From: an uncultured Clostridia bacterium
Lineage (GTDB): Bacteria; Bacillota; Clostridia; Peptostreptococcales; Anaerovoracaceae
Length of the DNA: 64,000 nt
Direction: 5' to 3'
Assembly (NCBI GenBank): GCA_945928865.1
Contig: CAMENZ010000002.1
Span: 62,001 to 126,000 of the forward strand
The notes beneath the pieces were generated by a model that did not search any database, had not been told where the DNA came from, and was given only the letters and a program-made list of their open reading frames with translations. Position numbers and translations under genes: made by a program. Position 1 is the first letter of the stretch. Each line of letters opens with the position of its first letter. Below are positions 8,498 through 13,511 of the stretch, piece after piece.

Positions 8498-8513
8498 GTA
8501 ATAAAATTATTAC
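8498..8513 (-). terminator. A+T-rich hairpin at the rqcH 3' end
   Basis: GTAATA pairs with TATTAC across a 4-nt loop, overlapping the rqcH stop codon. The minus strand then reads AAAATTTTTT. The stem is short and A+T-rich, so efficiency is uncertain. Confidence 0.45.
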
Positions 8514-10204
8514 TTCGACTTCGGCAATTTAGGATTCACCCAAACAGTTCTGTTATTAGTAAAAATCACCATACCCGGTTTCGCACCTGCCGGTTTCTTT
8601 ACATATTTTATAGGTACATAATCTACAGGAACATTTTCAGAACCTCTAGCCTTAGAATGATAAGCAGCTATTTCACAACCGGTTACAATGTCCTCCTCAC
8701 TTATTTCCTTTTCTCCGGCTTTCAAAATTACATGAGAACCCGGAATATCTTTAGTATGAAGCCATAGATCTGTCTTAGAACCGGTTTTAAAAGTCAGAAT
8801 ATCGTTTTCCTTATTATTTCTTCCAACTAAAATAGTGGCTCCACTTTCAAGTAAATATCTATGAGGCTTAGGCTTGTCAGCCTTTTCTTTATAGCCTCCT
8901 CTTTCTTTACGCTTCCTTAGGTATCCCGTTTCTACCAATTCACGCCTTAAACTTTCTATCTCACCTATATCATCAGTATTCTCTAAAAAAGTCAAAACTG
9001 ACTCTAAATAAAGTATCTCTCCTTGATTCTTCTCCAGCTGTAACTGCTTTTCCTTAACCGCCGTTTTAGCTTTGCCATATTTTTTAAAATATTGTTGTGC
9101 ATTTTTTGAAGGACTATCTTTAGGATTCAAATTCACAGTAACCTTTTCACCGTTATAATAATTTATTAAATCAACCGTCCTCATGCCCGTCTTTATCATG
9201 TGAAGATTTGCAGTAATAAGTTCTCCAAAAAGTCTTAAGTCTTCTGAATTCTCAGCCTTAATTAAATCTTCCGAAAGTCTTTTCTTCTTCAAATACATCT
9301 TATCTAAATTAGCATTTACTGCACGAATCAAATCATGGGATTTTTGTTTACCCTGATTTGATGACTCCCTAAGACTAAAATATTTCTCTAAACACCTACT
9401 TATGCTTTCAAAAGTTTCTACCCTGCACACCTTTTCATATTCATCCAACTTCAAAATATGGAATTCTACAGGTTCTTCCTTATCTGAATAATATATATTA
9501 GGCTTAACACTATTAGACTCAATTTTTTCTTTAATATCTATTAAAAACCCAATTTTATCTTCTCTACTAGCAATTTCCTCTGCCAAAGCCGGTGAAATCC
9601 CACCAATTTTTCTAAGAAGCGCAGCCCCCTTATTAGCCTTTAGTATATCTTCCAAGTCCTCAGATTTTCCCTCTAACAACTCCTTATAAGGCACCTTATC
9701 CTGCTTAGGCGGATATTCATAAATTATTCCGGGCAAAATCTGTCTAGCCCTATTTACATCAAAAGAAACTCTCTTTATAGCATCTAAAATCTTACCTGTA
9801 GCAGCATCTACTAAAACAATATTAGAATGTTTTCCCATAATTTCAAATATGAGTTTTTTGGATACATTAAAACCTAGTTCATTTAAAGTTTCAATATGAA
9901 ACTCTATAATTCTCTCCGAATCCTTTTGAATAATCTCTGTAATTCTACCACCTTGTAAATGCTTTCTTAAAAGCATACAAAAAGCTAAAGGGGCAGGCGG
10001 ATTTACAGGACTCCCATCAATAAAGTGTACCCTTGCATGAGAAGATCCTGAAGATGCAAAAACTTTAAAATTCCCTTTTTTTGAATGTATGTTAAGTACC
10101 AGCTCATCTTTCTCAGGCTGGTAAACCTTTTCTATTTTCCCTAAAAGTATATTTTCCTTAAGCTCCCAAACAACTGCTTCAGTAACTAAGCCGTCATACG
10201 CCAT
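8510..10204 (-). CDS. rqcH: Rqc2 homologue RqcH (NFACT family)
   Basis: 564 residues. RqcH binds 50S subunits obstructed by peptidyl-tRNA and directs addition of C-terminal alanine tails that mark the nascent chain for degradation. The N-terminal NFACT-N domain begins MAYDGLVTEAVVWEL and contains CMLLRKHLQGGRI (about 76-88). A coiled-coil region rich in Lys and Glu spans about 285-430. The NFACT-R domain at the C terminus has WLHTKDIPGSHVIL and the VPVDYVPIKYVKKP to NRTVWVNP pattern. At the position of the Asp-Arg pair known to be essential in B. subtilis (97-98) this protein has Glu-Arg. Older annotations call the family fibronectin-binding. It lies 8 nt downstream of the lipase gene. Confidence 0.93.
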   Translation of the reverse strand: MAYDGLVTEAVVWELKENILLGKIEKVYQPEKDELVLNIHSKKGNFKVFASSGSSHARVHFIDGSPVNPPAPLAFCMLLRKHLQGGRITEIIQKDSERIIEFHIETLNELGFNVSKKLIFEIMGKHSNIVLVDAATGKILDAIKRVSFDVNRARQILPGIIYEYPPKQDKVPYKELLEGKSEDLEDILKANKGAALLRKIGGISPALAEEIASREDKIGFLIDIKEKIESNSVKPNIYYSDKEEPVEFHILKLDEYEKVCRVETFESISRCLEKYFSLRESSNQGKQKSHDLIRAVNANLDKMYLKKKRLSEDLIKAENSEDLRLFGELITANLHMIKTGMRTVDLINYYNGEKVTVNLNPKDSPSKNAQQYFKKYGKAKTAVKEKQLQLEKNQGEILYLESVLTFLENTDDIGEIESLRRELVETGYLRKRKERGGYKEKADKPKPHRYLLESGATILVGRNNKENDILTFKTGSKTDLWLHTKDIPGSHVILKAGEKEISEEDIVTGCEIAAYHSKARGSENVPVDYVPIKYVKKPAGAKPGMVIFTNNRTVWVNPKLPKSK

Positions 10205-11280: not shown

Positions 11281-11397
11281 ATGAAAAAGACCTGTCCTTG
11301 TTCCTTATGCGGGAACTATTTAAAAATTACCACCTTTAAAGGTGGTTATGTTTGTGAAGATTGCGTAGATTTTATTAAGGTCACAACTAAGAAATAA
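11281..11397 (+). CDS. 38-residue CxC-CxxC zinc-ribbon-like protein
   Basis: A short ORF with an excellent Shine-Dalgarno (AAGGAGG, 7 nt before the ATG). Its sequence is MKKTCPCSLCGNYLKITT, a GGY turn, then VCEDCVDFIKVTTKK. Two Cys clusters (CPCSLC and CEDC) around a short strand-turn-strand resemble a rubredoxin-like or ribbon zinc knuckle. A clear intrinsic terminator follows at 11471-11495, which supports a real transcription unit. It is one of few plus-strand genes in the window. I do not recognise a named family; it could bind zinc, nucleic acid or a partner protein. Confidence 0.7.
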   Translation: MKKTCPCSLCGNYLKITTFKGGYVCEDCVDFIKVTTKK

Positions 11398-11498: not shown

Positions 11499-12527
11499 CT
11501 AAAATTTATTATCGGATTTACTTATTCTGCTTACCTTACCTACAGAACCATCCAGCTTAAAAGGTCTGCCCACTGGTTTTTTAGGTCTATAGTCCTTTTC
11601 TTCGTATTCATTTGATTTGTATGGTCGACCCTCCGGCTTACCGAATTTATAATCTCTAGCTTCCCTTCTGTCTGACCTATAGCCTCTGCCTTCCGGCTTA
11701 CCGGATTTATAATCCCTATTTTCTTTTCTGTCTGATCTATAACCTCTGCCTTCCGGCTTGCTAGATTTATAATTTCCAGCTTCTCTTCTGTCTTCCCTTA
11801 CGGAATGACTGTAAGCTGCTTTAGTAGGCTTATTTACCTTATAAGTTCTGTCTTTATATTTTGCTGATTTGTCTAACTCTAAATTCTTATTTTTTTCTCT
11901 TTTTTCTTTATTTTTAGCAATTCTCTCTTCATGAGCAGTTTTATTAAGTCTTTTTTTAGTTTTTGGCTTCATAATAGAATAACCGAATTTACCGAGAGCC
12001 AGTTTACTTGTTGTAAAATACTCTCCATGAATATAAGAAAGCAGTCTTGCTTTATCTAAATTGAATTTGCCTTTATCATCTATATAAGTTTCATCTACAT
12101 GAACCTTAACTATTTCTGCCATATACATATCATGGGTGTTAAAAGTTTGTTTTCCTATAACCTTACATTCTAAATTAACAGGCGATTCTACTATCATAGG
12201 ACAGCTTACCTCTTCACCATATTCTTTAGTCAATCCCATTTCTTTAAACTTATCTAAATCTCTACCTGATTTTACACCACAAAAATCCGTTTCCTTAGCT
12301 AAAGCTCCAGTAGTCAAATTGATTACAAATTCCCCGGATTCTTCAATTATATCATGAGAATATCTCTCAGGTCTAATGGACACATAGGTTATTGCCGGAC
12401 TTGAATTTATAATACCTGTCCAACCTATAGTTATAATATTTTCGTTATTCTTTTCTTTACTTCCACAAGATACCATAACTACAGGTAGTGGTGCTAAAAG
12501 GGCTGAACCCTTAAATGATTTTTTCAT
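11499..12527 (-). CDS. Flavin reductase-like protein with a basic repetitive C-terminal tail
   Basis: 342 residues from the ATG at 12527, which has GAGG 6 nt upstream; an upstream TTG overlaps that site. Residues about 1-190 match FMN-binding split-barrel flavin reductases: PLPVVMVSCG, ITIGWTGI, VSIRPERYSHDII, GEFVINLTT, FCGVKSGRDLDKF and SPVNLECKV. Such proteins bind FMN and often reduce flavin with NAD(P)H. The family usually ends near GKFGYSIMK. Here about 150 extra residues follow, rich in Lys, Arg, Asp, Tyr and Gly, including four 20-residue repeats of the type DYKSGKPEGRGYRSDRREAR (11535-11774). The tail looks disordered and could bind RNA or acidic partners. The apparent Cys near the N terminus is part of the flavin domain, not a lipobox. 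Confidence 0.85.
   Translation of the reverse strand: MKKSFKGSALLAPLPVVMVSCGSKEKNNENIITIGWTGIINSSPAITYVSIRPERYSHDIIEESGEFVINLTTGALAKETDFCGVKSGRDLDKFKEMGLTKEYGEEVSCPMIVESPVNLECKVIGKQTFNTHDMYMAEIVKVHVDETYIDDKGKFNLDKARLLSYIHGEYFTTSKLALGKFGYSIMKPKTKKRLNKTAHEERIAKNKEKREKNKNLELDKSAKYKDRTYKVNKPTKAAYSHSVREDRREAGNYKSSKPEGRGYRSDRKENRDYKSGKPEGRGYRSDRREARDYKFGKPEGRPYKSNEYEEKDYRPKKPVGRPFKLDGSVGKVSRISKSDNKF
11535..11774 (-). repeat. Four 60-bp tandem repeats encoding the flavin-reductase tail
   Basis: Four in-frame 20-codon units. Their conserved core is Y-K/R-x-x-K-P-x-G-R-x-Y/F. Units 1 and 2 are closest to each other, units 3 and 4 more diverged, suggesting stepwise duplication. Confidence 0.85.
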
Positions 12528-12572
12528 ATTTTTCCTCAATTTCTTTTTCTATTTGCATATTATTTATTGCCT

Positions 12573-13511
12573 TTATTTTCTCAAATTATCTAGAATTTTC
12601 TGAAAGGCTTCAGGTATATCTCTTTCAAATTCCATATATTCACCGGTTCTTGGATGTACAAAACCTAAAACTTTAGCATGAAGCAATTGACCTTCTACAG
12701 ATATAGTCTGTTTTTTAGGGCCATATACTAAATCCCCCACTAAAGGATGTTTAATATATGACATATGAACTCTTATTTGGTGAGTTCTACCGGTTTCTAG
12801 CTGCGCTTCTATTAAGGTGTATTTACCTAACCTTTCTAAAACCTTATAGTGAGTAACAGCTCTCTTGGAGTTTTCCCTTGTAACAGCTTGCTTCAATCTG
12901 TCTTTCGGGTTTCTTCCGATAGGTGCATCTATGGTACCCTCATCTTCAGAAAATCCATTATATACTAAGGCTATATATTTCCTTGTAATACTATGTTCTG
13001 CCAGTTGCTTAGATAAACCTTCGTGTACTAAATTATTCTTTGCTATCATTAAAAGTCCACTAGTATCTTTATCTATTCTATGAACAATTCCGGGTCGTAT
13101 AACTCCGTTAATTGAAGACAGTCTATCTCCTAAATGATACATAATAGCATTTACCAAAGTTCCGGTGTAATTTCCTATAGCAGGGTGGACTACCATTCCC
13201 CTTGGCTTATTTACCACTAAAACATCATCATCTTCATAGACTATATCTAGAGGAATATTTTCTTTTTCTATAGCCAATTCCTCCGGCTCCGGAATATTAA
13301 TTTCTATTTTATCTAGGGCTGCAACTTTTTCTTTTTTGCTCAGGCAAATTTTGTCATTTACCCTAACAGCTCCACCTTCAATAAGCTTTTGTATAAAGCT
13401 TCTGGAAGTTTCTGTTAAATGCAAAGAAAGCACTAAATCAAGTCTAGTGCCTTTTTCATCTTCCTCTATAATAAATTGATAATTTTTAAATTGATTTTCA
13501 ATTTGATTCAT
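12573..13511 (-). CDS. rluD: RluA/RluD-family pseudouridine synthase
   Basis: 312 residues. An S4-type RNA-binding domain occupies about 15-85 (RLDLVLSLHL, FIQKLIEGGAVRVND). The catalytic domain carries VNKPRGMVVHP and the active-site HRIDKDTSGLL with the nucleophilic Asp. It ends with ETGRTHQIRVHM and HPLVGDLVYGP. RluD-type enzymes modify uridines in helix 69 of 23S rRNA; the exact target here is inferred, as paralogues share the motifs. The start overlaps the lspA stop by 4 nt (ATGA), so the two are translationally coupled. Confidence 0.92.
   Translation of the reverse strand: MNQIENQFKNYQFIIEEDEKGTRLDLVLSLHLTETSRSFIQKLIEGGAVRVNDKICLSKKEKVAALDKIEINIPEPEELAIEKENIPLDIVYEDDDVLVVNKPRGMVVHPAIGNYTGTLVNAIMYHLGDRLSSINGVIRPGIVHRIDKDTSGLLMIAKNNLVHEGLSKQLAEHSITRKYIALVYNGFSEDEGTIDAPIGRNPKDRLKQAVTRENSKRAVTHYKVLERLGKYTLIEAQLETGRTHQIRVHMSYIKHPLVGDLVYGPKKQTISVEGQLLHAKVLGFVHPRTGEYMEFERDIPEAFQKILDNLRK

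Follow-up and report, generated by a model that had tools for sequence, protein, structure and literature searches.

A flavoredoxin-like flavin reductase whose ancestral basic C-terminal tail, probably lengthened by tandem duplication, may tether it to RNA or the ribosome

Why does a flavin reductase of an uncultured Clostridia bacterium end in 156 strongly basic residues that include four 20-residue repeats? The gene lies in the window, the whole stretch of 64,000 nucleotides that was analysed, and the original prediction described it as an ordinary reductase domain fused to a tail that may tether the enzyme to RNA or ribosomes. The reading that we favour, tentatively and at somewhat less than an even chance, is that of a flavoredoxin-like reductase whose tail tethers it to RNA or the ribosome and has been lengthened here by tandem duplication. 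Two features define the enzyme itself:

11499..12527, minus strand: flavin reductase gene with basic tail (from the open reading frame, the AGGA before the ATG and the orthologue starts)
12015..12491, minus strand: Flavin_Reduct core with a split-barrel FMN-binding fold (PF01613, E 4.9e-27; 2d5m; Foldseek 2r6v)

The ORF at 11499-12539 on the minus strand is one uninterrupted open frame. Its probable start is the ATG at 12527 (codon 5 of the ORF), which gives a protein of 342 residues, follows an AGGA placed 5 bases ahead of it, and agrees with the equivalent start residue of the orthologues; the alternative TTG at 12539 would give 346 residues. The claimed flavin reductase domain is well established, as PF01613 matches residues 17-175 (346-residue reading) with 95.4 bits, well over the cut-off of 27, and the core matches flavoredoxin 2d5m with an E value of 2.9e-24. 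The fold points the same way: the best Foldseek match of the predicted structure is 2r6v (E 5.1e-16, TM on the target 0.78), and the AlphaFold2 model aligns with flavoredoxins and PH0856 at target TM values of 0.75-0.81, as expected for the split-barrel FMN-binding fold. This model, based on an alignment of 13 sequences, has a mean pLDDT of 65.3 with the tail included and a pTM of 0.50, the core blocks being mostly above 70. Identity as StyB, RutF or HpaC is ruled out by the NCBIfam cut-offs (23, 19.1 and 18.8 bits, compared to 200, 254.75 and 205.95 required).

The tail begins after GYSIM and can be divided as follows:

11502..11969, minus strand: basic C-terminal tail, 156 residues, net charge +26 (sequence after GYSIM)
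11844..11957, minus strand: ancestral part of the tail, a predicted basic helix beginning KKRLNK (AlphaFold2; counterpart in orthologue tails)
11502..11831, minus strand: lineage-specific extension, predicted disordered and rich in K, R, E, S, Y, G and P (pLDDT; genome search)
11739-11798, minus strand: repeat unit 1, REDRREAGNYKSSKPEGRGY
11679-11738, minus strand: repeat unit 2, RSDRKENRDYKSGKPEGRGY
11619-11678, minus strand: repeat unit 3, RSDRREARDYKFGKPEGRPY
11559-11618, minus strand: repeat unit 4, degenerate, KSNEYEEKDYRPKKPVGRPF

The composition is close to what had been described, namely about 150 residues rich in Lys, Arg, Tyr and Gly: Lys and Arg make up about one third of the 156 residues, Tyr 7% and Gly 7%, and 25 residues are acidic. 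The four 20-residue repeats are also present, as in-frame units of 60 bp, for which TRF reports a 60-bp period with a score of 219. Units 1-3 share 70-80% protein identity among themselves, and unit 4 shares 30-45% with them. At an offset of 20 the tail shows 50 self-matches, compared to a best value of 27 in 2000 shuffles, which excludes a chance origin of the period. The last 40 residues of the protein carry a net charge of only +5, unexceptional among the frames of the window. In the AlphaFold2 model, residues 191-228 of the 342-residue protein form a helix (ten-residue blocks with pLDDT 65-95) that contains the stretch common with orthologues, in which T4, K6, R7 and R16 are invariant among 16 tails picked for similarity. 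From about residue 233 to the C-terminus the blocks fall to pLDDT 36-44; disorder, which the original prediction had proposed to look at, is thus predicted for an extension of about 110 residues following the predicted helix, and these final residues are without counterpart in the orthologues.

Whether the tail was fused onto a tail-less enzyme depends on how the relatives end. When 349 genomes of the same family were searched in six frames, 211 gave a match at E 1e-30 or better and the other 138, many of which are incomplete, gave none at that level; the C-termini of orthologues were read in 103 of the 211, covering 39 genera. Before counting, we set aside the window itself (L001, L031), distant or unmatched loci (L047, L048) and one interrupted frame whose tail was not delimited (L102), while three paralogues (L028-L030) were moved from the orthologue counts to the flavin reductase controls; L027 was omitted from the tree as well. 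All 103 same-family orthologues carry a Lys/Arg tail after the core, of 13-78 residues and net charge +6 to +21. Over the 98 distinct proteins (five identical to named records are counted as named in this set), the tail has a median length of 27 residues and a median net charge of +12, with a median of -4 for the core. The share of long tails is overstated, because many of the 60 fetched loci were chosen for long open frames. Tails are shorter outside the family, with medians of 9.5 residues for eight loci of the same order and 8 for 15 named loci (range 1-79 over both groups).

The contrast with other flavin reductases is clear. The last 25 residues have a median net charge of +10 (+4 to +13) in the 103 orthologues, whereas 23 other flavin reductases (19 from the family, four from the order), some of which (e.g. 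L186, L192) end before the aligned core does, have a median of +1 (-6 to +5) and no tail. Its presence in all 103 orthologues and absence from these 23 enzymes indicate that the basic tail is ancestral in the orthologue group and that the window protein extended a pre-existing tail. Two statements of the original prediction have to be revised accordingly. The family does not normally end near GYSIMK, since the same-family orthologues read continue with KPKTKKR-like tails of 13-78 residues, and an end within a few residues of this site is confined to more distant relatives; and the tail is lengthened here, not fused. The proposed search for flavin reductases with similar tails did find them, in every same-family orthologue read, although without the 20-residue repeat. 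The finding is therefore less odd as a fusion and more widespread than first thought.

Outside the family (f10), the orthologue L022 has a Ser/Lys/Gly-rich tail of 79 residues and no rluD directly upstream; a long branch leaves its position in the tree uncertain. Clostridium aminobutyricum clusters with same-family sequences on the quick tree, and the host family is probably Anaerovoracaceae in GTDB terms.

These data also bear on another explanation, namely that the tail takes to an extreme the general Lys/Arg bias of bacterial C-termini, which would raise protein level or slow degradation. PMC7246954 reports that a C-terminal lysine raises expression in Mycoplasma pneumoniae and that the bias extends over 1,582 genomes. 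According to its abstract, the expression library varied the last two codons, while the basic stretch here covers 13-156 residues, and the 23 other flavin reductases lack one. The general bias explains neither the length of the tail nor the contrast with paralogues, and we consider this explanation highly improbable.

The window tail is the longest among the orthologues read, a statement that holds for 103 of the 211 genomes and that unread genomes could overturn, and no other tail read showed a regular Tyr/Arg repeat. No comparable period was found in seven other tails of at least 58 residues, the closest being L055 and L060, where 27 and 33 of 1000 shuffles reach the observed self-match. When the 126-residue extension was searched against the 349 genomes, it gave a strong match to itself only, together with four weak ones (E 0.002-0.01), one of which contains internal stops. 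The best of these (E 0.002) is the Arg-rich end of what we take, from its sequence and its ribosomal-protein neighbours, to be ribosomal protein S3 (G296, L136). Searches of the tail against Pfam, NCBIfam and the PDB found no known RNA-binding domain or repeat, the sole match of any kind being a sub-threshold spiralin lipoprotein (12.6 bits, compared to a cut-off of 140), and a PDB profile search with 16 aligned tails gave nothing at E 10. No plasmid-borne relative of the extension was found in PLSDB at E 1e-3, and no structured RNA in the window at Rfam gathering scores; the literature titles and abstract openings listed did not mention this protein.

An in-frame mobile or palindromic element is ruled out, as the degenerate KPEGRxY pattern occurs at three sites in the genome, all inside the flavin reductase gene, and the tail protein has no match at E 10 or better in the rest of its own genome. 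The palindrome of a terminator-like hairpin at 11692-11705 within the tail arises from GKPE codons in a single unit, and units 1 and 4 do not preserve it. Helicases had been cited as carrying such tails; this finds no support in this genome, since the last 40 residues of six helicase-domain frames have a net charge of 0 to +3 (a seventh, L148, ran off its locus and was left out), and the lack of a basic end in these six rules out a helicase-like tail.

Is the extension selected, or has it merely accumulated? In sister pairs, the pN/pS of the tail lies between 0.06 and 0.26 for 13 of 14 pairs, several of which share members, and reaches 0.54 in the remaining one; the cores give 0.02-0.28. Tails of sister species thus appear to evolve mostly under purifying selection. 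Within the window protein, 13 of the 27 differences between repeat units 1 and 2 and units 2 and 3 are synonymous, compared to means of 5.5-7.7 in neutral simulations, an excess with p from 0/5000 to 0.0136 over eight settings. This excess speaks for the repeats having been translated as protein once they had been duplicated. An unstable frame, named originally as a reason to doubt the tail, is not seen; the frame is intact and the repeat units of this one genome look constrained. The tail is real, in frame and probably under constraint, that of the extension being drawn from the repeat units of a single genome.

Tail length is nevertheless labile, which keeps partly neutral growth a live rival: the short ancestral tail would matter, but the extension would have grown almost neutrally as low-complexity sequence through repeat slippage and been tolerated for its solubility and charge. 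Tails appear to turn over rapidly: in the related MAGs L036 and L037, 169 of 180 core residues are alike, yet the tails measure 25 and 78 residues. Tails of at least 58 residues take seven changes, or about seven independent gains, a rough figure on a quick, poorly resolved tree with 41 open forks; long tails are unlike one another in sequence, close sisters excepted; and repeat unit 4 is degenerate. Such growth accounts less readily for the synonymous excess between units, for the 14 aromatic residues of the window tail (at most two in any same-family tail read), or for 155 codons open in the tail frame when both other frames of the strand contain stops. We regard near-neutral growth as unlikely, though a serious contender.

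Taken together, the long basic tail in every same-family member read, the purifying selection in sister pairs and the absence from paralogues are best read as a polyanion tether. By length, basic charge, predicted disorder and selection (for the extension, in one genome), the window tail fits basic-tail tethered proteins. Which polyanion it would bind is suggested in part by the gene neighbourhood:

12573..13511, minus strand: RluD-type pseudouridine synthase (PF00849 and S4), directly upstream of the flavin reductase
11281-11397, plus strand: small protein of 38 residues, encoded convergently to the flavin reductase, with two CxxC pairs and a GGAGG ribosome-binding site
8510..10204, minus strand: NFACT (RqcH-type) gene (PF05833, PF05670), downstream of the flavin reductase

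The gene order in the window is rimM, trmD, HlyD-like, alanine-racemase-fold, sepF, divIVA, lspA, rluD and flavin reductase, followed by the small convergent gene, an alpha/beta hydrolase and NFACT. The 38-residue protein, presumably zinc-ribbon-like, is matched in 29 of 132 flavin reductase loci, duplicates included; when whole genomes are considered, 17 of 21 contain a match at E 0.1 or better, in many cases a weak one.

Among 96 testable same-family loci (three more had flanks too short for the count), the gene immediately upstream of the flavin reductase is rluD in 63, NFACT in seven and neither of them in 26. The gap to rluD has a median of 18 nt over 68 cases, including five named records, a value that is approximate because gaps were taken between aligned parts. 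NFACT is directly upstream in L004, L054, L057-L059, L064, L066 (g20), L008 (g19) and L033, at 6-27 nt in eight distinct cases, and L033 has the order rluD, NFACT, flavin reductase. Neither gene is directly upstream in any of the eight same-order loci, while the 15 named loci include five with rluD and one with NFACT; nine of them (L038-L046) lack the neighbourhood, five of these belonging to other families according to NCBI. The arrangement would fit a shared transcript with the gene of an rRNA pseudouridine synthase or of a ribosome-rescue factor, and the window gene is perhaps co-transcribed with rluD, but the cluster is one of general housekeeping. Tails are also present at all 26 same-family loci with neither gene directly upstream and in L022, so the tail is independent of this neighbourhood.

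Basic tails are able to bind membranes, DNA, polyphosphate and acidic partners as well as RNA, which weighs against an RNA or ribosome tether. So do the 25 acidic residues of the window tail, the low charge of its last 40 residues, the absence of an RNA-binding family match, and the tails at loci without rluD or NFACT directly upstream; the weak match to the end of S3 counts in its favour. The tail might then bind an anionic membrane, nucleoid DNA, polyphosphate or an acidic redox partner, consistent with a family that conserves tail charge more than sequence and with the membrane and division genes lspA, divIVA and sepF in the wider cluster. Nevertheless, Leu, Ile, Val, Met, Phe and Trp together make up less than 6% of the pooled tails, ill-suited to an inserting amphipathic helix; charge is not segregated on one helix face, 17% of shuffles reaching the observed charge moment; and the nearest neighbours are usually an rRNA-modification or ribosome-rescue gene. 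We judge such a target improbable, if well worth keeping in mind. From the gene neighbours and the tail composition we infer that RNA or the ribosome is favoured over membrane or DNA.

We thus return to the RNA or ribosome tether, in which polyanion binding by the tail, the nature of the polyanion and a benefit to the reaction are all inferred. The basic tail of the orthologue group would hold the enzyme electrostatically to RNA, with rRNA or the ribosome the most likely partner. A 60-bp unit duplicated in tandem and in frame would have lengthened the ancestral helical tail in this species, and the long disordered Tyr/Arg/Lys repeat would add contacts and hence avidity. Tethering would serve the reaction, for instance by providing reduced flavin to an RNA-modifying or ribosome-associated enzyme. 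A bolder version, which we put forward as a long shot, is that of a clade-wide flavin reductase associated with the ribosome or rRNA and co-transcribed with rluD or rqcH, which would provide reduced flavin or sense redox state at the ribosome, and whose Tyr/Arg stickers in this species, placed at intervals of 20 residues, would bring about RNA-dependent condensation. The interest of the finding lies mainly in a basic-tailed flavin reductase that occurs across the family next to rluD or rqcH. If the tail binds RNA or ribosomes, this clostridial enzyme would be a candidate for connecting redox state to the modification of rRNA or the rescue of ribosomes; natural tails that range from 1 to 156 residues, all on the same kind of core, also form a ready length series for testing bacterial basic tails.

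Among known systems, the core resembles in sequence and fold the flavoredoxins and FMN-binding split-barrel proteins of Desulfovibrio (2d5m), Methanosarcina (3bnk) and Pyrococcus (PH0856, 2r6v), whose chains of about 182-196 residues are matched across the core, the long basic tail being extra in the window protein. Clostridial orthologues behind rluD, for example in a goat-rectum MAG (L032) and in C. aminobutyricum (L035), have the same gene, gene order and KPKTKKR tail start, but with tails of 32 and 21 residues, respectively, and without the 20-residue repeat. The Arg-rich C-terminal extension of S3 is alike in composition, on a different core and without convincing homology to the window tail. 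Finally, the lysine-rich KKE/D disordered domains of snoRNPs, as presented in PMC11528048, are eukaryotic and borne by RNP proteins rather than by a flavin enzyme; we claim no kinship with them, only an analogy of working, that of a charged disordered tail on proteins tied to rRNA modification.
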